Shown here piece after piece: positions 5,860 to 22,041 of a DNA stretch of 22,785 nucleotides. The stretch covers positions 1-22,785 of IMG/VR virus record IMGVR_UViG_3300032083_000541. One strand, written 5' to 3'. The position numbers were made by a program, and so were the translations under genes. A model generated the notes under the pieces. The model had not been told where the DNA came from. It searched no databases and saw only the letters and a list, made by a program, of their open reading frames with translations. Origin of the DNA: a virus. How positions within the stretch are numbered: position 1 is the first letter of the stretch; each line of letters opens with the position of its first letter.

Positions 5860-8178
5860 TTATGGGCCAACGGTAACAGAACCGGGTGGTGGTGGAGGTG
5901 TCCCTTTTGCCGAGGAACCTACAGTCTTTTTCCCTGTTAAATATTCCTCATACAATTGTTGTATCTTTTCTCTATCCCTTAATATAGAAGGAGTTCTTAG
6001 TACTTGACCACCAAACTTAACAGAAAGACTAGCACCGTCCTCTCCAACTTCTCTAGCCAGTTTACCCATCATTGACCTAACAAGTGTCATGTTCTCTTCT
6101 ACAGCTTGTACTTCCGCTTTTTCACCGAAAGTGCCTCTAAATTTACCTTGATTAATTTGTGATACTGTAGATGTAGTACCATCAGTGTTTGTTATTTCTT
6201 GAGTTTGCATAAAGGGAGCAGTATTAATAAGAATGTTAGCTTGTTTCAAAGCCTCTCTTTCTCTATGATCTTTACTTTTTGATATTCGATCAGCTTTCTT
6301 AGCAGCAGCTTTGGCTTGATTATATGTTTTATCTGCTCGAATTTTTCCTATCTCAAGAGAGGCCTGACTCACCTTATCAGCAACCTCACCAAATGTTTTT
6401 GCTAATTTTCCTTTATCATCAAGCGTTCCCATTTGATTAGTTATTTTAGCAATTTCTGCTTGTCTTACAGCGTCAGCTTGAGCCTGTGTTAAATTAGCCA
6501 CTCCAGCCATATTTGCTAGCTTCTTATCTTCAATGCCTTGTAAATCTTTTCTTCGTTCTCTTAACAGTTTTCTTTCATCTTTATAACTATCTTTTAAATC
6601 CCCCAATGCTTTGGATTCTAAAAATCCAGATGCTATTGCTTGAAGGGGATTCTTACCCGCAGGATTTGCTGATAATATACCTAGACCTGCTTTAGCAAGG
6701 GCAAGATATTTATCTCTTTCGATATCACCTTCTTCTTTAGCATATGCTTCTTCTACATCAGTTTTTCGTTTGGCAAAATCAATACCTTTTAGTGCTGTTA
6801 AATAATCTTTACTCTCTTGCGTCTGTGTCGGCACTAGCAAAGGATTTTGCTGCTGTCTTAGTCTTTCTTTTTCCTGAAATGCTTCTCTCATTCTTTCTAC
6901 TTGCAAATTTTGTGCTCTTCCATATTGATCTAAAAACTGTGGACCCGGATCAATAACAGGAATAGAGGGTACTTGATATTGTTGAGCATTACCAAAAATA
7001 CCCGGACCACCAATGCGTCCGGGGATGTCAGCATACTTTCCAATCTTACCACCACCAGCAAGACCCACTAGTCCACCTTCTTTCTTAAAAGCACCAAACG
7101 CACCAGCCGTACCAAGAGCAGCTAATCCAAGTCCACCAACTTGTTGTAAGGCAGACGGTGTTGCTGCAGTTCCTGTTGTTCTCTGAACAGTACTAGCTGG
7201 AATAGGAGCAGAGTATCCCCTAATAATAGATTGATAGTCTTGCAGAGTTCTTTCAGGAAATGTTCTGGCAACTTCATATTCTTGTTGAGCAATATCCAAG
7301 GCTTGCTGACCTACATCTCTTCTAGTTGCTCCAACAGTTTCTAATGCAGTTATCTCTCTAAGAGTTTGTGCTGGCACTGCACTAGCTAAAGAAGCAAATT
7401 GTTGACCAGCACTTCTTTCTCTATTTCTCTGTTGTGCAAGTCTGTTCTGTGCATCTTCAAATGCAGCCGCCAATCCTCTAGCTTGAATATCTCCAAGTTT
7501 TTGCTGAAGATTTCTATTTGCTTCTGATTCTAAAATAGCCTGACGAGAGCCACCAAATGCTCCAGCATCTACACCTCTTTTAGCTAATCGTTGTCTTTCA
7601 ACATCAGCCGTTCTTTCTGCTTCTCTTGTTTGAATGTCTATTACATTTTGTATATAAGGATTCATAAACTGACCAACAGATGCTGCATTAGGAGCAAATG
7701 CACTTGAAGCAGTTAATGCCTCTGCCGTTCTAAAGTATGGTTGACTCGCTCCCTGTAGATCTTGTACTCCCGCAAAAGCTTGTTCCTGCTCTGGAGAAAA
7801 TTTAGCAATACGAGGACCAGAAAAGGGAACATATCCTTCCTCTTCTCTTCTTTCTTGAAGAGCTTGTGCTTTTTCTAGAACATCAGTAACATATGGTTTT
7901 AATTCTTCAGGAATAGTTTCTTTGGTAACGGTTGACTGCGAGGGAGCAGGTGCAGGAGAACCACCACCCGATCCACCACCAAACTGAATCAAACCTGTGT
8001 GAGGATTAATTGTTCCTGAACCGCCCATGTCCCGAAGAACTTGCATCTCTTCGACATTAACATGGGCTAACTCAGTATCTCCATCAATACCCTTACCAGC
8101 AAGATCAACATACAAACAATTGTATAGCTCAATCTTTTCTGGAGTAGATAATTTAGAAACAATATTTTTTACAGACAT
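5860..8178 (-). CDS. Large helical virion protein with INPxTGL and GGLVGL motifs
   Basis: I place the start at the ATG at 8178 (772 residues), one base after the GNAT stop. A longer frame to 8223 would overlap the GNAT gene and is less likely. Near the N-terminus lie DTELAHV, then GTINPHTGL; a (GGS)-rich and Pro/Ala linker follows. Next is a long Gln/Arg/Glu-rich helical region including EEGYVPFSGPRIAKFSPEQ and FPERTLQDYQ. A GGLVGLAGGG turn sits near residue 370, and the C-terminal half is Lys-rich helix ending in TPPPPPGSVTVGP. I recognise the motif set from marine phage structural proteins but know no assigned function. It has no transmembrane segment. A virion core, tail or ejection protein is the best inference. 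Confidence 0.55.
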   Translation of the reverse strand: MSVKNIVSKLSTPEKIELYNCLYVDLAGKGIDGDTELAHVNVEEMQVLRDMGGSGTINPHTGLIQFGGGSGGGSPAPAPSQSTVTKETIPEELKPYVTDVLEKAQALQERREEEGYVPFSGPRIAKFSPEQEQAFAGVQDLQGASQPYFRTAEALTASSAFAPNAASVGQFMNPYIQNVIDIQTREAERTADVERQRLAKRGVDAGAFGGSRQAILESEANRNLQQKLGDIQARGLAAAFEDAQNRLAQQRNRERSAGQQFASLASAVPAQTLREITALETVGATRRDVGQQALDIAQQEYEVARTFPERTLQDYQSIIRGYSAPIPASTVQRTTGTAATPSALQQVGGLGLAALGTAGAFGAFKKEGGLVGLAGGGKIGKYADIPGRIGGPGIFGNAQQYQVPSIPVIDPGPQFLDQYGRAQNLQVERMREAFQEKERLRQQQNPLLVPTQTQESKDYLTALKGIDFAKRKTDVEEAYAKEEGDIERDKYLALAKAGLGILSANPAGKNPLQAIASGFLESKALGDLKDSYKDERKLLRERRKDLQGIEDKKLANMAGVANLTQAQADAVRQAEIAKITNQMGTLDDKGKLAKTFGEVADKVSQASLEIGKIRADKTYNQAKAAAKKADRISKSKDHREREALKQANILINTAPFMQTQEITNTDGTTSTVSQINQGKFRGTFGEKAEVQAVEENMTLVRSMMGKLAREVGEDGASLSVKFGGQVLRTPSILRDREKIQQLYEEYLTGKKTVGSSAKGTPPPPPGSVTVGP

Positions 8179-13962: not shown

Positions 13963-14940
13963 TTATCCAAATGAAGATACTAAAACCATATCAATTGCAC
14001 TTACACCCCGAACATTGTAAACCAACATATCTACAGCACTAGCTACTGTAGATAAAACAGGAATCTCTGCATCAGGAAAATTGTAACTATCTCCATATGA
14101 TAGTGTCCGACTTCCAGTGTTATCCTGAAATACATAGATATATCCACTCTGTCCCGGCAATGCATTTGATGGATTCTGCAAAGTTCTATTGCCCGTTAAA
14201 GAAACAAAGAAGGTAGTGGCTGTCGATAGATCAAGAGCAATTGATGCTGCTTCTGTTAGAGTAACAGGTGGAACTACAAGTTGACCAGAGAATGTAGCTT
14301 GTGAATTAAATGTTGCACTTCCTGCTACACTAACAATATTTAAAACTGCATTAGAAACAACTGCTGAATCAGCCGCAATAGAGGTTGTATATATACTAGT
14401 GGCTGATACACTTGTAGCAAAGCCCACCGCAGATGCAAAGGTTACAGGTTTATTAAAAGTATTAGTATCTGTAAAAGTATTAGCCGAAGATAGTTTTGCA
14501 AAGCTAGCAGTTGTTTCAGCAGTTAAATAATCAAGACCATAAACAGAAACACTATCACAGAAAAACATTTTTTTGCTGCCGCTTGCAACTGTTGATCCTG
14601 AACCAGAGCCTGACCCACTTTTCAAAGTAATTACTGCTGAATTTTCTCTGGTAGTCTTGTCGTTAATAATATAAGCTTTAGATTTTTCTGGAACAATAAC
14701 ATTTAAGCTAGCAGAAACAGTTCCAGATAATTCTAAAAGGGGACTACGAGATTGATCTGACGTTCCGTCATTAGCTGTTAAGGTTACATCCGCACTAGAA
14801 ACAGTAATGGTAGTGTATGCAGCAATAGCCTCATCTACTAGATCAATAACATTTTGATTTAGAATAGAACCCCAACTGTTAGGATTTTCTCCATCACCTT
14901 GTTTTTCTAATCTAATTCTAGAAGTATAAGTACTGGGCAT
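13963..14940 (-). CDS. Tail fibre protein
   Basis: This 325-residue protein begins MPSTYTSRIRLEKQGDGENP then NSWG, an N-terminal virion-attachment module I know from marine phage fibres. A Ser/Gly linker follows at about residues 108-120. The middle is a repetitive Thr/Ser/Ala/Val shaft (residues about 155-220), and the C-terminal beta domain contains LTGNRTLQNPSNALPGQSGY and TGSRTLSYG. It would bind the tail through residues 1-90 and project the C-terminal part. AGGA nine bases upstream supports the ATG. It lies two bases after the small secreted-protein gene. No Ser-Asp-Lys autoprotease (chaperone) motif was seen. Whether it or the glycine-rich proteins contact the receptor is not known. 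Confidence 0.75.
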   Translation of the reverse strand: MPSTYTSRIRLEKQGDGENPNSWGSILNQNVIDLVDEAIAAYTTITVSSADVTLTANDGTSDQSRSPLLELSGTVSASLNVIVPEKSKAYIINDKTTRENSAVITLKSGSGSGSGSTVASGSKKMFFCDSVSVYGLDYLTAETTASFAKLSSANTFTDTNTFNKPVTFASAVGFATSVSATSIYTTSIAADSAVVSNAVLNIVSVAGSATFNSQATFSGQLVVPPVTLTEAASIALDLSTATTFFVSLTGNRTLQNPSNALPGQSGYIYVFQDNTGSRTLSYGDSYNFPDAEIPVLSTVASAVDMLVYNVRGVSAIDMVLVSSFG

Positions 14941-14942
14941 TC

Positions 14943-15317
14943 TTAAATTCCTTTTCCTTCAACACCTGTTGCTACTATATAACCTTTAAAATAGGTATAA
15001 ACAGGTGACTTAATTTTAAGTATAAGAGTATTTCTATTGTTATAATCTTTGTAACTTCCAATAATATCAGTAATTAAAAATATTTGTGGTGGTCTTATTT
15101 CTAGACAATTAGAATTAATAGTATTTTTATAGACAGTTAAGTTAAGTTTTTCTTGACTTTTAGTATCAGCATAAGCTATATCCATTATAGCTTTTTCTTT
15201 TTTACACATAAAAAGTACAATTACTTTGTCACCAATTTGCCAAGTATTTGCTAGAGCTACACTATAATTAGGCACCAATAAAAATAATAAAATAGCTGCT
15301 AAAATTATTTTTTTCAT
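14943..15317 (-). CDS. Small secreted protein of unknown function
   Basis: I place the start at the ATG at 15317 (124 residues), where the protein begins with a classic signal peptide: MKKI, a hydrophobic core AILLFLLV, then SVALAN as a probable cleavage region. A longer frame to 15350 would bury this signal. The mature part is about 100 residues, beta-rich, with two cysteines (in FMCKKE and NSNCLE) that could pair in the periplasm. It begins one base after the PP-loop gene ends. The family is not recognised. A periplasmic factor such as superinfection exclusion, or a partner of the enzyme next door, is speculation from the cassette context. Confidence 0.6.
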   Translation of the reverse strand: MKKIILAAILLFLLVPNYSVALANTWQIGDKVIVLFMCKKEKAIMDIAYADTKSQEKLNLTVYKNTINSNCLEIRPPQIFLITDIIGSYKDYNNRNTLILKIKSPVYTYFKGYIVATGVEGKGI

Positions 15318-15318
15318 T

Positions 15319-17025
15319 TTAATTAATAAACCTTTGTAGTGAATCTCCATATTTATCTTTTAACAAGTCGGTATTAGTTGAGGTATCTCCAGCATAAATA
15401 ATATTATTATTATTATCTATTGCTATAGTGCTTCCCCATCTAACTCTTAAAGAACCATGTTTTAATTTTTTATCTCTATAATCTGCATCTGAGGTATAAT
15501 CAAAGATGTAATCTTTCGCTGTAAATTTATATGACTCTAAAGTATCTTTAATTTTTTTATCAGGATTTGAAATAGACCATTTTTGAAAATCATCAGTTCT
15601 AAAGAAGGAACGAGAGTTAGCTAAATCATTTTTGTTTTTAACAAGAGACAATGCTCTATAAGTTACCTCGTCCCATTTTAAATTAAAATTCCACCACCAA
15701 AATAAATCTCCAATAGAAGATATAGTATAAGGACATTTAGAATTAAATAATTTTATTTCATCTATGTTGTCAGGATGTTTTTCTTTTAAAAATTCATCTA
15801 CCGTCATAAGAAATAGTTCAGGATGGGACATCAATCCTGATGAGCCAAAAAGTTGATCGCCACATTCACCTGTAACAGATATACCAGTACCTAAATTATT
15901 TTCAATGTGTTTTAGAATGGGAGAGAAAAAAGGTTTATCCATGTAATATTTATCAGGGTCTTTTACTGGTTCTACAACTTTTTCTGTTTGAATTTTCCCA
16001 TCAATATAATTATTCCAAAATAAAGAATACTCTTCAATAGAAGCGTCAGTATAAATAATTTTTAATCTATCGTGCCAATCAGACGGTTTAGATTTTAATA
16101 GACTTACTAATGCTACTGTGCTATCTATTCCGCCACTCCAGTATACTTTTATTTCCTTATCTTCATTCCATAGATTTACACCTGTTTCATCTGCTACTTC
16201 TATAAAGGTTTTTGTAAATCCTGTAGCGTCAGGTATTGGACTACCCTCTAACTTTAAATTACTAGATAAAGTATTTGTTCGATCAATAGCATTCCAAAGA
16301 CAATGAATATCTTTTCCTATAGCATCTAAAGTTGTTTTTTTATATTCACCCGATCCAACTCTTAAAAAATCTGGACGAGCAAAAATTAATTTATCACCTA
16401 GTGCATCTGTTGATACATCAACCGATGTCTGAGTTTCAAAATTAAATATATCAACAAATTTATCTAAAACTTTTATACTACAATCAATATCTAATGGACC
16501 GAAAACACTTCTAATTCGTCCAACACCTACAGCAGTATGTAAAAGAATTGCACACTCTACACATTCTTCTTCAGGTATAGGATTAATAAATTCATCTTGA
16601 TTATTTAAAATATCTACACAAGTTTGAGGATCAGTAGCATCTAAAATTTCTTGACGTCTAGTTTGATATAATTCCTCAATAAATAATCTAGATGCATTAT
16701 TCTTAAATTGTTGTAATGCATTGTCAACTTTTTCTTCTTTAGTATTTCCTATAACTGTAGTTGCTTGGTCTTCAGTTATTTCTGATCTAAGGAATTGTTC
16801 AACTTGTGTAATGTTTTCAGGTTCTGGAAAATACCAATCTCTGTTTTTTACATATTGATTATCAAATCTTTCAAGTACAACTTTTTTAACAGTTAGTAAA
16901 TCTTTCCACTGCTCTTCAAAATCTGTCTTATCTGCATTAAGAACCATAACCTTTAGATCAATATCAGAAGGTGATTTATCACTTCCCGGTATTGGATTAT
17001 CTATTCTTTTTAATACTAAACTCAT
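15319..17025 (-). CDS. PP-loop / asparagine-synthase-like ATP-dependent enzyme
   Basis: This 568-residue protein carries the PP-loop SGGIDSTVAL at residues 297-306 and GECGDQLFG at 386-394, matching the GExxDxxFG signature of the asparagine-synthase C-terminal domain. Such enzymes adenylate a carboxylate or other oxygen and transfer nitrogen or sulfur. The protein lacks a Cys at position 2, so the usual N-terminal glutaminase is absent. Instead, residues 1-290 form an unrecognised region containing EEECVECA. The C-terminal 150 residues are Trp/Asp-rich. Ammonia or another nucleophile would need another source. Related PP-loop proteins amidate surface sugars (WbpG type), but the substrate here is unknown. 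Its ATG overlaps the upstream microprotein's TGA (ATGA). The fold is well supported; the reaction is not. Confidence 0.75.
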   Translation of the reverse strand: MSLVLKRIDNPIPGSDKSPSDIDLKVMVLNADKTDFEEQWKDLLTVKKVVLERFDNQYVKNRDWYFPEPENITQVEQFLRSEITEDQATTVIGNTKEEKVDNALQQFKNNASRLFIEELYQTRRQEILDATDPQTCVDILNNQDEFINPIPEEECVECAILLHTAVGVGRIRSVFGPLDIDCSIKVLDKFVDIFNFETQTSVDVSTDALGDKLIFARPDFLRVGSGEYKKTTLDAIGKDIHCLWNAIDRTNTLSSNLKLEGSPIPDATGFTKTFIEVADETGVNLWNEDKEIKVYWSGGIDSTVALVSLLKSKPSDWHDRLKIIYTDASIEEYSLFWNNYIDGKIQTEKVVEPVKDPDKYYMDKPFFSPILKHIENNLGTGISVTGECGDQLFGSSGLMSHPELFLMTVDEFLKEKHPDNIDEIKLFNSKCPYTISSIGDLFWWWNFNLKWDEVTYRALSLVKNKNDLANSRSFFRTDDFQKWSISNPDKKIKDTLESYKFTAKDYIFDYTSDADYRDKKLKHGSLRVRWGSTIAIDNNNNIIYAGDTSTNTDLLKDKYGDSLQRFIN

Positions 17026-17141
17026 TCTATAAAACTCTTTTCCGATTGATGAAGCTGCACCATTACTCTAACTTGTTCTTGAGAATACGCAAAACAACCA
17101 TAAAAAACAAAACACAAACCAAAAAACTTTAGTGTATACAT
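17022..17141 (-). CDS. 39-residue microprotein with signal peptide
   Basis: A short frame in the 126-base gap between the cupin and PP-loop genes starts at ATG 17141 and stops at TGA 17022-17024. It encodes MYTLKFFGLCFVFYGCFAYS followed by a polar tail QEQVRVMVQLHQSEKSFIE. The first 20 residues look like a signal peptide, with an AYS|Q cleavage fit; FYGC is a weak lipobox alternative. The TGA overlaps the PP-loop ATG (ATGA), which is typical of real coupled genes. No clear Shine-Dalgarno precedes it. The mature peptide would be about 19 residues; function unknown. Confidence 0.5.
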   Translation of the reverse strand: MYTLKFFGLCFVFYGCFAYSQEQVRVMVQLHQSEKSFIE

Positions 17142-17151
17142 AATATATTTT

Positions 17152-17736
17152 TTAGACAACATGTGTTCCCAACATCATAGGATGGTTAAATTCTTCATTA
17201 GTACTAGACCATATATGCATAGGAACAACAATCAAGTCTTCATCGTCTGTTTCAAAGTGATGTGGCTCCATAGCATTTAAAATTAAAGTTTTGCCTTCAA
17301 CTAATTTATGTCTCTCTACATTAGAACCTACACCTGAAACTGCTGTACCTCTCCCCGATAAAACATATACCACTCTATCTGTTGAATGAATGTGATGTTT
17401 TTGTTCTGAGCATCCAGCAGGTATCTTTAATAATTGCATACAAGGATCACCAGATCGAATAGGAGGTAGGATATTATTTGTACTGCACCCATTAATATAA
17501 GGTAAATAAGCATTTAAATTAATTTGAGCAGTTCTATTTGGTGGTGTGTACCCATATATAGTAATAATAACTTCACCAAAACATGTACCCCAATTCTTAA
17601 CCGATACACTTTCTTTATTAATAATCCATGCTGAACTATTTTTAGGTACTTTATATTGGTTCCCTGTGTTATCTACTTGGTAATAGTATAAACTATTTTG
17701 AGGTGCAATGTAAGTGCGGTTGTTTAAAAATAACAT
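17152..17736 (-). CDS. Cupin-domain protein
   Basis: In this 194-residue protein the C-terminal half is a cupin. Motif 1 is IPAGCSEQKHHIHSTD then YVLSGRG (residues 105-130), with metal-ligand candidates His115 and His117. Motif 2 contains EGKTLILNAMEPHHFE (residues 147-162), with His159 or His160. The Glu normally found in motif 1 is absent; Asp120 may replace it. Residues 1-90 are beta-rich and could be a degenerate second cupin. Such proteins are isomerases, epimerases, dioxygenases or small-ligand binders. The gene abuts the stop of the glycine-rich gene with no spacer and is followed ten bases later by the microprotein. A joint pathway with the PP-loop enzyme is inferred from position only. 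Confidence 0.7.
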   Translation of the reverse strand: MLFLNNRTYIAPQNSLYYYQVDNTGNQYKVPKNSSAWIINKESVSVKNWGTCFGEVIITIYGYTPPNRTAQINLNAYLPYINGCSTNNILPPIRSGDPCMQLLKIPAGCSEQKHHIHSTDRVVYVLSGRGTAVSGVGSNVERHKLVEGKTLILNAMEPHHFETDDEDLIVVPMHIWSSTNEEFNHPMMLGTHVV

Positions 17737-18495
17737 CTACGATGTAGCTCCATAAATATTCCCGTTATTTGTTATGTTTACCGATGCACCTGAATTTAAT
17801 CTAACTGCTTTTCCTGCATCACCTCCCGATCCACCTGATCCAATAACTCTACAGTTTACATTACCTGCAGGACCACTTCCTGCTGCACCCCCTGTACCTA
17901 CGTTACCCCAAGTTCCTCCTGGTCCTCCAGTAGAAGCTTCTCCCGATGATCCACTTGTATTAGTATTGGTAGGAGGAACATCAAAGCTTGCGCCCTTACC
18001 TCCACTACCTCCGTCTAGATTAGTACAATCACTACAAGTACTAGATTCATCATCATAGCGATCACAGGTTCGGTATCCTCCTCCCCCGCCGCCACCGCCG
18101 CCGCCACCGGCAATGTTTGCGCCTGAAGCATTAGTAATAGATGCGGTAATATTTTCTAAACTAATAGCATCTCCACCATTTTCACCTGCACCACCGTTAC
18201 TGCCACTACCACCACCAGCACCACCACCGTCTCCACCTCTACCAATAATGTTACCATTATTAATTAAAATAAAATTACTTCCTGCAACAAGATGAGCAGT
18301 AAATGCTGGTACATTAGTAACTTGGCTAAAAACATTTACACCACTATTAATAACAACCGTAGCGTCAATAGGGTCTACACCGTTCCAACCAAAACTACCT
18401 TGTAAAACATTAGACAGATTATAGTTCTCTGTATCTGAAGTGATAGTTAATGTTTCACCTTTAGGTCTTCTGCTTCCAAAAAATAAAATAGACAT
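17737..18495 (-). CDS. Glycine-rich tail adhesin-like protein, copy 2
   Basis: The 252-residue protein has a beta-rich N-terminal domain (residues 1-80), including SGVNVFSQV and VAGSNFILINNGNI. A glycine-rich region follows (84-235) with a run of eleven Gly at 130-140, and it ends in NITNNGNIYGATS. Gly-rich blocks alternate with polar inserts; one (141-160) contains three Cys. Polyglycine-II sandwiches with variable loops are the receptor-binding design of T-even gp38-type adhesins such as that of phage S16, which is the best analogy. It aligns throughout with the next gene upstream. The start is the ATG one base after that gene's stop region. Adhesin role: inference from composition and position between fibre genes. 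Confidence 0.6.
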   Translation of the reverse strand: MSILFFGSRRPKGETLTITSDTENYNLSNVLQGSFGWNGVDPIDATVVINSGVNVFSQVTNVPAFTAHLVAGSNFILINNGNIIGRGGDGGGAGGGSGSNGGAGENGGDAISLENITASITNASGANIAGGGGGGGGGGGYRTCDRYDDESSTCSDCTNLDGGSGGKGASFDVPPTNTNTSGSSGEASTGGPGGTWGNVGTGGAAGSGPAGNVNCRVIGSGGSGGDAGKAVRLNSGASVNITNNGNIYGATS

Positions 18496-18496
18496 T

Positions 18497-19273
18497 TTAA
18501 CTTGTAGCCCCGTACACGTTTCCAGAATTATTTAAGGTATTAGACGCACCTGACCCTACAGAAATTGCTTTACCTGCAACACCACCACTACCGGGAGTTC
18601 CAGCCGATTTGCATTCGTTAGGTGGGTTTGCCGAAGCACCACCTCCACTTGCTCCAGCATTTCCCCAAGTTCCTCCAGTACCTCCAGTCCCACCGTCGCC
18701 ACCGGAGTTGCTTTGCCCCGCACTGCCAGCAGTTGCATTATTAGTAGCGGGATTATCGGTGCTTGCTCCTGCACCACCTGCACCTCCACTGAATGAAACT
18801 TGTCCACTACACCCCAATTCTGGATCAGAACTTCCTCCACCTGTACCGCCAGCACCTCCACCGCCACCACCACCGGCACCGGCAATGTTAGCTCCCGAAG
18901 CATTGTTAATAACACAAGTTAGATTTGTAAGATCAATAGCGTTTCCACCAGCCCCACCTGCTCCACCATTAGGACCGCCAGCACTACCTCCAGCACCACC
19001 TCTTCCTGCTATAGTTCCGCTATTGTTAATTGTTAAATTAGAACCTGCAACAAGGTCGGCTGTAATAGCTGCAGTTCCTATTGTAGTTGCTCTAACATTT
19101 ATGCCTGAATTAATATTCAGAGTAACATCAATAGCACTTGTGCCATCCCAACTATAATTATTTACAAGATCATTTCTTAAATTATAATCAGCAGTATTAG
19201 CAGAAATTGTGATGATAGTTCCAGTATCAAATATTGTAATACCACCCTGAACTATAGGTGCTGGAAAGGTCAT
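18497..19273 (-). CDS. Glycine-rich tail adhesin-like protein, copy 1
   Basis: This is a 258-residue paralogue of the following gene. Shared landmarks in order are an INSG(I/V)NV strand, DLVAGSNL, GRGG, NASGANIAG before polyglycine, GGTWGN, and the terminal GN(V/I)YGATS. The Gly-rich part spans about residues 89-235, and inserts between Gly blocks differ from the paralogue in length and sequence. There are three Cys (120, 155, 221). The gene lies one base after the repeat-bearing tail fibre. It could form the distal tip of that fibre, with its inserts contacting the host surface. No enzyme motif is present. Local G+C is visibly higher than in the flanking genes, an effect of Gly codons. Confidence 0.6.
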   Translation of the reverse strand: MTFPAPIVQGGITIFDTGTIITISANTADYNLRNDLVNNYSWDGTSAIDVTLNINSGINVRATTIGTAAITADLVAGSNLTINNSGTIAGRGGAGGSAGGPNGGAGGAGGNAIDLTNLTCVINNASGANIAGAGGGGGGGAGGTGGGSSDPELGCSGQVSFSGGAGGAGASTDNPATNNATAGSAGQSNSGGDGGTGGTGGTWGNAGASGGGASANPPNECKSAGTPGSGGVAGKAISVGSGASNTLNNSGNVYGATS

Positions 19274-19274
19274 G

Positions 19275-21074
19275 TTACTGTAGCGCCTTTACAGTCAGCA
19301 TAGAGAATGTAGTTGTACCGTCATTCACTCTTGTAATATAAAAGAAAAACTCATCTCCATCCGTAGTAGAAATTGTATCTCCGTCTACTTTAGTATAACC
19401 AGAAGTAGTTACTGTTCCTGCACTAGCATTATTCTTATATAAAATTACCATCGTACAATTCTTACTAGGAACACCTAATGTATGTGCGCCACCATTAATT
19501 GTATATTGGAAATTTCCATTATCAACATCAGGTGTGTAAGTACCAGTAGTCTGTGTACCTGCATTATAAGCAGCAGCACTAAATCCAGCAGTTAATTCAT
19601 CTGCCGTATCAGCCTTTAATATATCAGGATCATAAGCCTCAACGTCACTTCCAATTGCCACTCCAAGATTTGTTCTAGCAGTTCCAGCATTATTCAAATC
19701 TGAAAGATTATTTGCAATGGCTAATCTGGTTCCAATGCTTGTGGCTAGAGTTGCGGATAGTGCTACCGCATAATCACTAACGGAAGTTATTCGAGTATTA
19801 GCAGTTCCTATACTAGTTGCCATTGTTGCAGACAACGCTACCGCAAAGTCACTAACAGATGTTATGCGAGTATTGGCTGTAGCTATACTTGTTGCAAGAG
19901 CAGCAGATACTGTAGCTAGTTCTGCACTTGTAGCAAAGTTACTACCATCTCCAAGAATAGCATTAATAGAAGTTATAGCCGCATTAGAATTACCAATGCT
20001 GGTAGCTAGCGTAGCTGAAAGAGCAACCGCATAATCACTGACAGAAGTTATTCGAGTGTTAGCAGTTCCTATGCTAGCGGCTAGTGTAGCTGAAAGAGCA
20101 ACTGCATAATCACTAACAGATGTTATACGGGTGTTAGCAGTTCCTATGCTGGTTGCCATTGTTGCAGACAATGCTACCGCAAAGTCACTAACAGATGTTA
20201 TCCTTGTGTTAGCTGTAGCAATGCTGGTAGCCAAAGCTGAAGATACTGCTGCTAGTTCAGCACTTGTAGCAAAGTTACTACCGTCTCCTATAATAGAATT
20301 AATACTTGTTATAGAATCTAGATTAGTTTTTGTAAGTGCCGAAACTGCTGCAACTTCTGTAACATTGGCGGCAGATACACCTGCCATTAAGAGTTCGTCA
20401 GCATCAATATTAGTTGCACTTAAAGTTCCAAAGACTGCAGAACCTGTAGCAACGAAAGCAGTACTAACTGAAACTGTACCAAAGTTTTGGTCTGCAGAAA
20501 CAAGTATTGTACCACTTACAGGAATATTACTTGATACTGCACCATCAACTGTAATTTTAATACCAGTACCTGCTTCAATAAACTTAACAGTACCACCTTC
20601 AGCAGAAGGAACATTGACAAGACCTGAACCATCACCTACAAAGAATGCTGCACTAACAGTGCCATTAAATGTAGCGGCAGATGCAGAAACTTTAGCAACA
20701 TTAATTGTTGTGTCAGCTAAACTTACAGCAATAGTAGGATTGCCTTCAGTACCATCTCCATTACCTATTGTTATGCCTGTACCTGCAGTAAGTGTCCTGC
20801 CGTATACATTTCCACTGCTTACTGCAACAAGACCTGTAATACCTGTTAGATCGGTAATTGCATTAATAGCTGATGCATTGGTTGTAATTGCAACACCGTT
20901 AAGTTTAAATGTTCCATTAATATCTACAGCACTTTTACTTAGTTTTAAAGCAGAGTTTTCTCCTGATCCATCCTGAACAGTTTGTTCAGTTGATGTTAGA
21001 CCCGTATTATTTGATCCAACCTGCAGGAGTTGTTTATATGTATTTGCAATTAAGTTTCCAGTAAGTTTACTCAT
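19275..21074 (-). CDS. Tail fibre with nested 25-residue repeats
   Basis: I choose the ATG at 21074 (599 residues), whose A is shared with the upstream TAA (TAATG); a start at 21089 would overlap the previous gene by 16 bases. Residues 1-230 hold Thr/Val/Gly-rich beta segments with TAGTGI and FVGDGSGL, typical of fibre shafts. Residues 257-449 contain 25-residue units built on NTRITSVSDYAVALSATLAT, with hydrophobic spacing suited to a trimeric coiled coil. NLSDLNNAGTARTNLGV follows, a motif common in phage tail fibres. The last 100 residues, from TTGTYTPDVDNGNF, form a beta domain. It directly precedes the glycine-rich genes, so it probably carries them or competes with them for receptor contact. 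Confidence 0.75.
   Translation of the reverse strand: MSKLTGNLIANTYKQLLQVGSNNTGLTSTEQTVQDGSGENSALKLSKSAVDINGTFKLNGVAITTNASAINAITDLTGITGLVAVSSGNVYGRTLTAGTGITIGNGDGTEGNPTIAVSLADTTINVAKVSASAATFNGTVSAAFFVGDGSGLVNVPSAEGGTVKFIEAGTGIKITVDGAVSSNIPVSGTILVSADQNFGTVSVSTAFVATGSAVFGTLSATNIDADELLMAGVSAANVTEVAAVSALTKTNLDSITSINSIIGDGSNFATSAELAAVSSALATSIATANTRITSVSDFAVALSATMATSIGTANTRITSVSDYAVALSATLAASIGTANTRITSVSDYAVALSATLATSIGNSNAAITSINAILGDGSNFATSAELATVSAALATSIATANTRITSVSDFAVALSATMATSIGTANTRITSVSDYAVALSATLATSIGTRLAIANNLSDLNNAGTARTNLGVAIGSDVEAYDPDILKADTADELTAGFSAAAYNAGTQTTGTYTPDVDNGNFQYTINGGAHTLGVPSKNCTMVILYKNNASAGTVTTSGYTKVDGDTISTTDGDEFFFYITRVNDGTTTFSMLTVKALQ
19728..20306 (-). repeat. Nested tandem repeats in the tail-fibre gene (75-bp and 336-bp units)
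   Basis: Five full or partial 75-bp units encode NTRITSVSD(F/Y)AVALSAT. They are arranged inside two copies of a 336-bp (112-residue) unit that starts at SIN(S/A)I(I/L)GDGSNFATSAEL. The first copy has three 25-residue units before the next GDGSNF block, the second has two. Confidence 0.85.
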
Positions 21075-21352
21075 TAAACCATATTCCATTCAGTTGTTTC
21101 GTTTTCCCACTCAGTCGTAGCTAGTTGCCAAGCAACATTTCTATCATTATTAAGAGGAGGTCTAGGATTACGAAGGGTTTCGTCATCTCTTGTAGCAGGA
21201 GTTCTATTTTGTGGATGATTTTTTAAATCAAAGTTTCCCTCAAAATCTTCAGGGCAAACCAGCATTCCGTAGCTATTCATACGCAATACTCTTAAAGGAT
21301 ATGCAAATCCACAAGTATCACAAAGTCCTTTAGCATTTTTATTTGTTGCCAT
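21074..21352 (-). CDS. Small Cys-containing (zinc-ribbon-like) phage protein
   Basis: The 92-residue protein has CDTCG (Cys11, Cys14), then a 20-residue stretch YPLRVLRMNSYG, then VCPEDFEG (Cys33) and NHPQN (His46). A zinc site of type CxxC...C...H is possible; the second half lacks the usual second Cys, so the site may be incomplete. Proteins of this pattern, with CxxCGFxYPL and HPQ, are common in marine phage structural operons between the adaptor and fibre genes; their role is not known to me. The C-terminus is Arg/Asn/Trp-rich. The stop overlaps the fibre start by one base. A small tail-assembly or structural protein is likely. Confidence 0.55.
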   Translation of the reverse strand: MATNKNAKGLCDTCGFAYPLRVLRMNSYGMLVCPEDFEGNFDLKNHPQNRTPATRDDETLRNPRPPLNNDRNVAWQLATTEWENETTEWNMV

Positions 21353-21366
21353 AATACTACTCTATA

Positions 21367-22041
21367 TTAAATATAGCCGAGTCTTGGTCTAATATACATG
21401 CTAGCTCGTTCTTTATCTTCAGTGTTAGCTCTTGCTAATAGCTCTTCATAATTTTGTTTTAGCATTGTAATTCTACCTTCAGGAACCCCTGCTCTTTTCA
21501 TAGACATGTAATATGCCAGACCAGCAGTTAGACAAGGTAGAAATCTTTTAGAAATATCAGCATTCTGAAGTGCTGATTTATTTATATCTTGAAGTTCACT
21601 AATTTTTTCTACTTTTAATTTGTCTGTAGAATTTTCTGGAATAGGCCAAAGAAATATTGTAGGATTGTCTCTATTTCTTTTAACAGTATATTGAGTAGGT
21701 CTACCTGTCTGTCCTTTACGAGGGACTTGTAAATATTCTTCATAAGAAATACGATCTAACGGTAGATCAGTATTATCTCTATTTAAAATAACTTGCAAGG
21801 TATCAATAGTTGAATCACTAAGAGGATATGAAGTAGTACTTGTAGAAAGAGATATAACAGATGCTTCTGTTGTCCATAATAAAATTTCTCTATTCTGCCA
21901 ATCTTTTAACATTAGATTTAAAGAACGACGAGCGGAGGCTGGCTCATGACCTAGAGTTTGTTCTCCTCCGATCATTTCCATTGCTTCTTGAATAACTTCG
22001 TCTATATCCAAATTAAATGTAAATGTTCCACTGGTCGCCAT
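21367..22041 (-). CDS. Head-tail adaptor / P22 gp4-like tail accessory factor
   Basis: This 224-residue protein begins TFNLDIDEVIQEAMEMIGGE, then ARRSLNLMLKDWQN and LLWT. This helical N-terminal pattern belongs to the P22 gp4-like tail accessory family in short-tailed phages. It continues with a YPL strand, an EEYLQVPRKGQTGRPTQY segment, LWPIPE, and a C-terminal helix with the LAYYMSMKRAG core. Gp4-type proteins bind beneath the portal ring, extend the channel and allow tail hub assembly. Its position before the tail fibres and the hub candidate at 12.07-13.96 kb agrees. No lysozyme domain (which P22 gp4 itself has) is seen. Family: fairly sure; ring position: by analogy. Confidence 0.65.
   Translation of the reverse strand: MATSGTFTFNLDIDEVIQEAMEMIGGEQTLGHEPASARRSLNLMLKDWQNREILLWTTEASVISLSTSTTSYPLSDSTIDTLQVILNRDNTDLPLDRISYEEYLQVPRKGQTGRPTQYTVKRNRDNPTIFLWPIPENSTDKLKVEKISELQDINKSALQNADISKRFLPCLTAGLAYYMSMKRAGVPEGRITMLKQNYEELLARANTEDKERASMYIRPRLGYI

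Follow-up and report, generated by a model that had tools for sequence, protein, structure and literature searches.

Record IMGVR_UViG_3300032083_000541 of IMG/VR, a 22,785-base sequence of a marine virus of bacteria analysed here over its full length (the window), carries inside its tail-fibre locus a cassette in which two genes for gp38-like, glycine-rich adhesins are followed directly by genes for a cupin, a membrane-type microprotein, a long PP-loop protein (PPL) and a secreted-like protein. The PPL and the cupin very probably act together, and the pair is tentatively read as a phage modification unit that, in this lineage, may be dedicated to the neighbouring gp38-like putative receptor-binding adhesin. 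On the minus strand, the gene order is a putative tail fibre of 604 amino acids (aa), the two adhesins, the cupin, the microprotein, the PPL, the secreted-like protein, a 325-aa tail-fibre-like protein and a 628-aa structural protein. From adhesin A through the 325-aa protein, the successive spacings are 1, 0, -11, -4, 1 and 2 bases, negative values being overlaps and -4 the ATGA shared by the microprotein and PPL genes. The minus-strand open reading frames (ORFs) confirm the initial annotation in describing a tight cassette between adhesin genes and a tail fibre, and when the window genes were mapped on the first 36 related loci, many contigs, including near-identical ones, showed this order. 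The parts of the cassette are:

18497-19273, minus strand: gp38-like glycine-rich adhesin A, 258 aa, C-terminus GATS (Pfam GP38, 32.3 bits, cut-off 25)
18809-18826, minus strand: loop DPELGC at residues 150-155 of adhesin A, a candidate site of modification
17737-18495, minus strand: gp38-like glycine-rich adhesin B, 252 aa, C-terminus GATS (Pfam GP38, 30.8 bits, cut-off 25)
18034-18054, minus strand: loop DDESSTC at residues 148-154 of adhesin B, a candidate site of modification
17152-17736, minus strand: cupin, 194 aa, likely 3-His metal site (Pfam Cupin_2, 31.1 bits, cut-off 27.2, E 2e-7)
17022-17162, minus strand: membrane-type microprotein, 46 aa, hydrophobic span and QVRVMVQL tail
15319-17025, minus strand: long PPL, 568 aa, with an N-domain (about 1-214) and a predicted AsnB-type synthetase domain (about 215-568)
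16120-16137, minus strand: PP-loop motif SGGIDS, PPL residues 297-302
15844-15870, minus strand: second AsnB-type motif GECGDQLFG, PPL residues 386-394
14943-15317, minus strand: fast-evolving, probably secreted protein, 124 aa, two conserved Cys

The PPL, cupin and adhesin relatives were gathered in separate scans, of which the best 80 of 155, the best 80 of 84 (adhesin scan) and the best 80 of 108 were kept; many contigs are near-identical, and counts refer to unique protein sequences or to 90% clusters. All 26 unique long PPLs (at least 540 aa) lie 3′ of a gp38-like protein ending in GAT[S/T], separated from it by nothing, by the microprotein, by the cupin or, in locus L029, also by a second PPL. 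In the other direction, all 36 unique close adhesins for which 2.5 kb or more of downstream sequence is available have a PPL within 3 kb, a set that is the PPL-linked clade by definition because its profile was seeded from PPL loci, the scan retrieving the adhesins having been made without PPL. A glycine-rich ORF (at least 150 aa and at least 20% Gly) is present no more than 3 kb upstream in 13 of 15 long-PPL clusters, versus 7 of 69 short-PPL clusters (7 of the 46 with 3 kb of upstream sequence), so the PPL N-terminal domain tracks the adhesin, and the linkage is strict for the long PPL only. The two long clusters lacking such an ORF are L049 and L021, the adhesin of L021 being a fragment at the end of its contig. 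A check set beforehand asked whether the cassette genes never co-occur or are found only as unrelated single insertions; neither is the case, a PPL being paired with the cupin and a long PPL tied to the adhesin, and recurrence across loci rules out a single random insertion. In addition, the PPL-linked adhesins share two invariant Cys, with an acidic loop beside one of them. The pattern [DN].E.{1,4}C is found in 38 of 40 PPL-linked adhesins and its strict form D.E.{1,3}C in 34 of 40, versus 0 of 28 for either among distant gp38-like proteins, a hand-picked set that includes four adjoining short PPLs. Judged from its sequence, this acidic Cys loop is a possible modification site. A second PPL of 373-379 aa was also seen upstream of the tail locus in L024, L027, L032 (near the locus start) and L011 (6185-7315), lying in L011 between adhesin and cupin.

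The adjacency of all 26 long PPLs to an adhesin also speaks for a reading in which the PPL is a non-catalytic virion part or a dedicated adhesin chaperone that retains the PP-loop fold, as does L049, a tail-like locus in which no adhesin is recognised and whose 534-aa PPL is joined with a tail-assembly-chaperone domain (Phage_tail_APC, E 1.1e-12). Such a role is improbable, given that SGGIDS and GE.GDQ.FG are invariant in the 10 aligned long PPLs and retained at identities as low as 41-42%, and that a cupin would be an unlikely partner for a pure chaperone.

The initial annotation had assigned SGGIDS and GECGDQLFG to one PP-loop enzyme of the asparagine-synthase type, an assignment that the fold prediction upholds and refines to an AsnB-type synthetase domain without glutaminase. 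The AsnB family carries a motif of the GE..D[EQ].FG type, and AsnB itself begins with an N-terminal nucleophile (Ntn) glutaminase whose second residue is Cys. An AlphaFold model of the PPL, built from an alignment of 53 sequences (a 10-sequence version gave a predicted local distance difference test score, pLDDT, of only 54), reached a pLDDT of 91.1 and a predicted template modelling score of 0.85. In VIA-align, it matched human asparagine synthetase with Z 14.5 (root-mean-square deviation 3.5, 214 aligned residues), TsnB9 with 14.2, AsnB with 14.1, beta-lactam synthetase with 13.9 and carbapenam synthetase with 12.3, and Z fell to 9.4 or less for LarE, NAD and GMP synthetases and MesJ/TilS structures; these matches cover residues 215-527, the remainder being hardly probed by this method. 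The model of the PPL alone therefore shows an asparagine-/beta-lactam-synthetase-type domain. Plain Foldseek gave the same ranking with weak E-values (best 3e-3), and a viral structure library returned six phage proteins (E 1e-17 to 3e-12), three of which are named asparagine synthase. By sequence, the window PPL has at most weak, sub-threshold matches in Pfam, NCBIfam and PHROGs, including a weak PHROG resemblance to QueC; Pfam Asn_synthase gives no match to it at E up to 1, and searches of PDB sequences with the whole PPL or with the N-domain alone returned nothing useful.

A glutaminase domain is not recognisable in the PPL, position 2 is not Cys in the 10 aligned long PPLs and the N-domain is mostly helical. 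The PPL is not classed as AsnB for want of a recognisable glutaminase; in the model, it carries an AsnB-type synthetase domain without that partner. Its N-terminal 215 or so residues contain three invariant Cys (C155, C158 and C182), and VIA-align found no clear relative for them (a helical entry, 8euy_b, was listed at Z 9.4), a result that does not in itself point to a new fold. Two candidate identities for the N-domain were rejected for want of a profile match, namely a tail-assembly chaperone (the N-part of the L049 fusion included) and a gene, about 190-250 aa in length, found in front of some short PPLs. The latter gene is conserved directly 5′ of the short PPL in L066, L067, L099-L102, L215 and L221, some of which are contigs of metagenome-assembled genomes labelled as candidate phyla radiation (CPR) bacteria; three copies scanned gave no Pfam match, and that of L102 matches one PHROG of ‘unknown function’.

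The cupin call of the initial annotation holds, the Cupin_2 score being above its cut-off and the HxH motif present. Six residues, H115, H117, R121, H159, H174 and H185, are invariant in the 9 aligned sequences, in all of which Arg occupies the position of the usual Glu ligand, and the sequence suggests a likely 3-His metal chemistry at H115, H117 and H159. The closest solved sequence is acireductone dioxygenase (E 0.0026). The partnership with PP-loop enzymes is seen among 74 unique cupins, 57 of the window type and 17 most distant ones. A PPL lies no more than 1.5 kb from 47 of the 57 window-type cupins, on either side and sometimes on the opposite strand. Among the ten others, the contig end truncates L018 and L035 (L018 still contains the first 237 PPL residues); L074 and L092 have a PPL at 2.5 and 3.5 kb; L044 is a truncated version of the cupin in L217, and their record has two PPLs, the nearer 3.7 kb away; L205, in a 158-kb record, has its single PPL about 20 kb off, as has L206 in a 236-kb record, and these two count as one case because the compared stretches are identical. 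In the records of the L207 (28 kb), L211 (20 kb) and L224 (70 kb) cupins, no PPL was found. All 17 distant cupins overlap, or sit within 26 bases of, an SGGKDS protein, identified by string search only, so the cupin partners a PP-loop enzyme even across PP-loop families. In L234-L249, the cupin overlaps or directly precedes this protein, which is PAPS-reductase-like by eye. The ratio of nonsynonymous to synonymous substitution rates (dN/dS) is 0.12-0.28 for the PPL, cupin and microprotein against L032 and L014, indicating purifying selection.

These distant pairs, several of which are flanked by ParB-like genes (by eye), are among the points for a third explanation, that the PPL-cupin pair modifies nucleic acid or nucleotides, such as tRNA or phage DNA, like other PP-loop enzymes. 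The resemblance to QueC points the same way, as do two contexts read by eye, replication-type genes close to the L022 PPLs and an SNase-like gene adjoining several T4-like PPLs. No such gene, however, adjoins the window cassette, and the predicted fold is of the AsnB type (Z 12-14.5, versus 9.4 or less for LarE, the NAD and GMP synthetases and MesJ/TilS), which leaves this explanation little chance.

If the adhesin is the target, the PPL would spend ATP to adenylate a carboxylate, which might be an adhesin side chain, the adhesin C-terminus or a small acid destined for the adhesin, and would join the activated carboxylate to an amine in the manner of AsnB and beta-lactam synthetase, but without a built-in glutaminase. 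The 3-His cupin would use its metal to oxidise or rearrange that same target or substrate, and delivery of the enzyme to the adhesin ahead of tail assembly may fall to the N-domain of the long PPL, possibly helped by the membrane microprotein. Modification of the adhesin is favoured over the amidation of host-surface sugar, by the linkage alone. A more specific scheme, speculative and rather unlikely as a whole, is that an AsnB-type ligase, dependent on ammonia or an amine, works with a cupin oxygenase to cross-link or cap the glycine-rich adhesin, one possible site being the acidic residue that neighbours the invariant Cys, so that the adhesin would gain chemistry beyond that of the 20 amino acids, and that the gp38-like adhesins of other phages use radical SAM, ATP-grasp, 2-oxoglutarate (2OG)-oxygenase or other PP-loop enzymes likewise.

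It should be noted that several observations weigh against the adhesin as the target. Most short-PPL clusters with 3 kb of upstream sequence (39 of 46) have no upstream glycine-rich ORF; T4-like phages hold a PPL, partly with a cupin, between neck-like and terminase-like genes (assigned by eye); and other PPLs adjoin TctC, TctA, DctM and SSF transport genes. The L049 fusion has a different N-part, because long-PPL N-domains give no profile match to it. The D/N-x-E..C loop is not found in the adhesins beside short PPLs (L178, L095, L199 and L093) and may reflect clade ancestry, and the adhesin-like proteins of L095 and of Pseudomonas phage Cygsa01 give no Pfam GP38 match. L142 has a GATS-ending gp38-like protein in a locus without PPL, which refutes GAT[S/T] as an exclusive PPL tag; related C-termini, GAIS and GALN, occur in other gp38-like proteins. 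Finally, the L034 cupin is 87% identical to that of the window and the L034 PPL only 54%, so the linkage of long PPL and adhesin could be hitch-hiking in a mosaic locus.

Some of this would suit a different role, less probable but still a serious contender, in which the products or substrates of the PPL and cupin are a small molecule or an envelope glycan of the infected cell, in auxiliary metabolism, receptor masking or superinfection exclusion, and the tail locus is a landing site. Some short PPLs occur in tandem copies and next to transport genes of the TctC, TctA, tripartite ATP-independent periplasmic (TRAP) DctM and SSF types, the PPL-cupin pair is found in many genomic places and orientations, three cultured relatives carry 2OG oxygenases at the same locus, and the microprotein and secreted-like protein would point to the envelope. 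Against it stand the strict tie between long PPLs and a single adhesin family in phages that otherwise differ, and the tail-chaperone fusion of L049. Adhesin modification is kept as the tentative choice over a metabolite or envelope target, and is held no more firmly because the transporter, neck-terminase and tandem contexts fit small-molecule chemistry.

Loci L022, L053, L078 and L093 contain three to five PPL paralogues each, with TctC-like genes in L053 (Pfam) and L093 (by eye) and TRAP transporter genes in L078; the labels neck, terminase, ParB and SNase, and TctC in L093, were all assigned by eye. In L049, a 301-aa gene (6491-7396) that resembles a surface-sugar transferase by eye, with no family match, lies between a tail-like gene and the chaperone-PPL fusion. 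In favour of the adhesin as the target, diverged PPLs stand behind glycine-rich adhesin-like genes in L093, L095 and phage Cygsa01 as well, recognised by our own profile or by composition only, and L199 combines a glycine-rich gene (Pfam GP38, 26.5 bits), a PPL, a cupin and two 2OG-Fe(II) oxygenases. Other enzymes near gp38-like genes include radical SAM proteins (Pfam E about 1e-13) on their 3′ side, directly in L170 (5415-6830) and 2.6 kb off in L162 (7556-9001), and another PP-loop protein (FTGGVDSS) that follows at once in L148 (4911-5948) and is cut by the contig end. Of the 72 listed neighbours of distant gp38-like genes, 51 were scanned: two match Radical_SAM, two ATPgrasp_YheCD, two Phage_tail_APC and one a fatty acid desaturase, and at least 28 match no family at E 0.001. 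Enzymes beside gp38-like adhesins thus occur, yet they cannot be called the rule beyond the PPL-linked clade.

Two signal peptides had been proposed in the cassette. That of the secreted-like protein is kept as probable, whereas the microprotein, whose 19-residue Kyte-Doolittle maximum is 1.6, resembles a membrane peptide with one span more than it does a cleaved signal peptide; both labels were set by eye and from hydropathy. Beside the PPL, the microprotein is intact in 12 of 19 inspected loci, shortened in one (L029) and absent in six, and it is thus an accessory because it is not universal. Its architecture, a hydrophobic span and an E..RVRVxMEL-like tail, is kept beside PPLs only about 40% identical (L048 has diverged). 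In L029 (8556-8612), it is cut to 18 aa with the span gone, and in L034, a 3′ remnant lies between cupin and PPL, as if its end were retained for translation of the PPL. Its presence beside the PPL in those 12 of 19 loci would make it a candidate precursor of a ribosomally synthesized and post-translationally modified peptide (RiPP), yet it is membrane-like.

The secreted-like protein keeps two invariant Cys and is otherwise 21-39% identical in six relatives (87% in L002); in relatives, it is diverged or missing. Its dN/dS is 4.5 (few changes) and 1.1, compared with 0.12-0.40 for cupin and PPL, in an analysis of three pairs of which the close one, L002, has few changes and in which the secreted protein was measured on a longer ORF overlapping the PPL end. 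That ORF (135 aa, 14943-15350, as listed) runs over the PPL end, and the start is most likely 15317 rather than 15350 because the relatives support the internal ATG. The protein is probably a separate, fast-evolving receptor- or envelope-directed gene, and its family adjoins the receptor-binding locus in the position of superinfection-exclusion proteins, a putative role. The initial annotation had inferred one shared pathway for all four genes, a claim that is not supported, given that this protein is fast-evolving and diverged or absent and that the cupin and PPL are also paired in loci lacking an adhesin.

The flanking genes of the cassette are:

19275-21089, minus strand: upstream putative tail fibre, 604 aa, which precedes the adhesin in relatives (synteny)
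13963-14940, minus strand: downstream tail-fibre-like protein, 325 aa, a conserved neighbour with PHROG matches
21367-22041: adaptor-like protein, 224 aa

The 604-aa protein has no match better than E 0.1 in Pfam or PHROG. The 325-aa protein matches phrog_31104 and phrog_4757 (both of ‘unknown function’ in PHROG) and, weakly, the tail-fibre family phrog_9017, and the 628-aa structural protein matches phrog_3287.

The host range of a phage is normally read from its adhesin sequence. If adhesins are indeed finished by their own enzyme set, host prediction from sequence and the recombinant production of adhesins would miss part of the binding chemistry. Whatever the target, the cupin and the PP-loop protein form a recurrent phage enzyme partnership, of which the window PPL is barely matched by Pfam, NCBIfam and PHROGs, and phage Cygsa01, which is cultured and carries PPLs, makes part of PPL biology testable.

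Enzymes in tail loci are as such already known, the known cases being of different families, the 2OG-Fe(II) oxygenases. The best cultured relatives of the 224-aa adaptor-like and 628-aa proteins include DSL-LC04, the pelagiphages HTVC023P and HTVC027P and the Roseobacter phages CRP-901 and CRP-902, all below 60% identity. Tail-locus genes annotated as 2OG-Fe(II) oxygenase or oxygenase-like number three in HTVC023P, one each in HTVC027P and DSL-LC04 and none in CRP-901, so the earlier remark that metabolic enzymes are not expected here does not hold, three cultured relatives carrying annotated 2OG-Fe(II) oxygenases in the same tail locus. In HTVC023P-type pelagiphages, the oxygenases likewise lie between homologues of the adaptor-like and 628-aa proteins of the window, but the enzyme families differ. 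Colocated ‘partner-AMGs’ (auxiliary metabolic genes) have been described in such phages (PMC9599517), and in the main text of that paper the words ‘asparagine’ and ‘cupin’ each occur 0 times. Searches of one literature library retrieved no paper combining asparagine synthetase, cupin, phage and tail fibre, and nothing on this cassette among the papers listed.

Among cultured phages, tblastn with the window-type PPL, cupin and adhesin gave no match (the low-complexity filter may hide the glycine-rich adhesin), nor did the cupin of a T4-like locus, and a short-PPL query returned one record. In Pseudomonas phage Cygsa01 (L178:5855-8882), two genes annotated mnmA belong to the PPL family (E 1e-29 and 2e-27, against a profile that predates retrieval of the record) and sit behind an adhesin-like protein with 31% Gly. 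The annotation as MnmA seems mistaken, the first gene having no Pfam match and the second only sub-threshold matches to DUF7411 and Asn_synthase. Unlike the window PPL, those of Cygsa01 are short, and no cupin of the window family was found with them.

Set beside characterized systems, each part of the cassette shows a familiar core with its own departures. AsnB, beta-lactam synthetase, carbapenam synthetase and TsnB9 have the synthetase-domain fold (Z 12-14.5) and SGGxDS in common with the PPL, whereas the PPL lacks the N-terminal glutaminase of AsnB-type enzymes and has instead a mostly helical N-domain of about 215 aa without a recognised relative. The metal ligands of acireductone dioxygenase follow the pattern HxHxxxE(...)H; this enzyme and other metal cupins share the HxH and a later His with the window cupin, which differs in having Arg at the Glu position and two extra invariant His. 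Both window adhesins are above the Pfam cut-off for the phage adhesin Gp38 (PF05268), but the PPL-linked clade is distinguished by two invariant Cys, by the D/N-x-E..C loop and by enzyme genes directly downstream.

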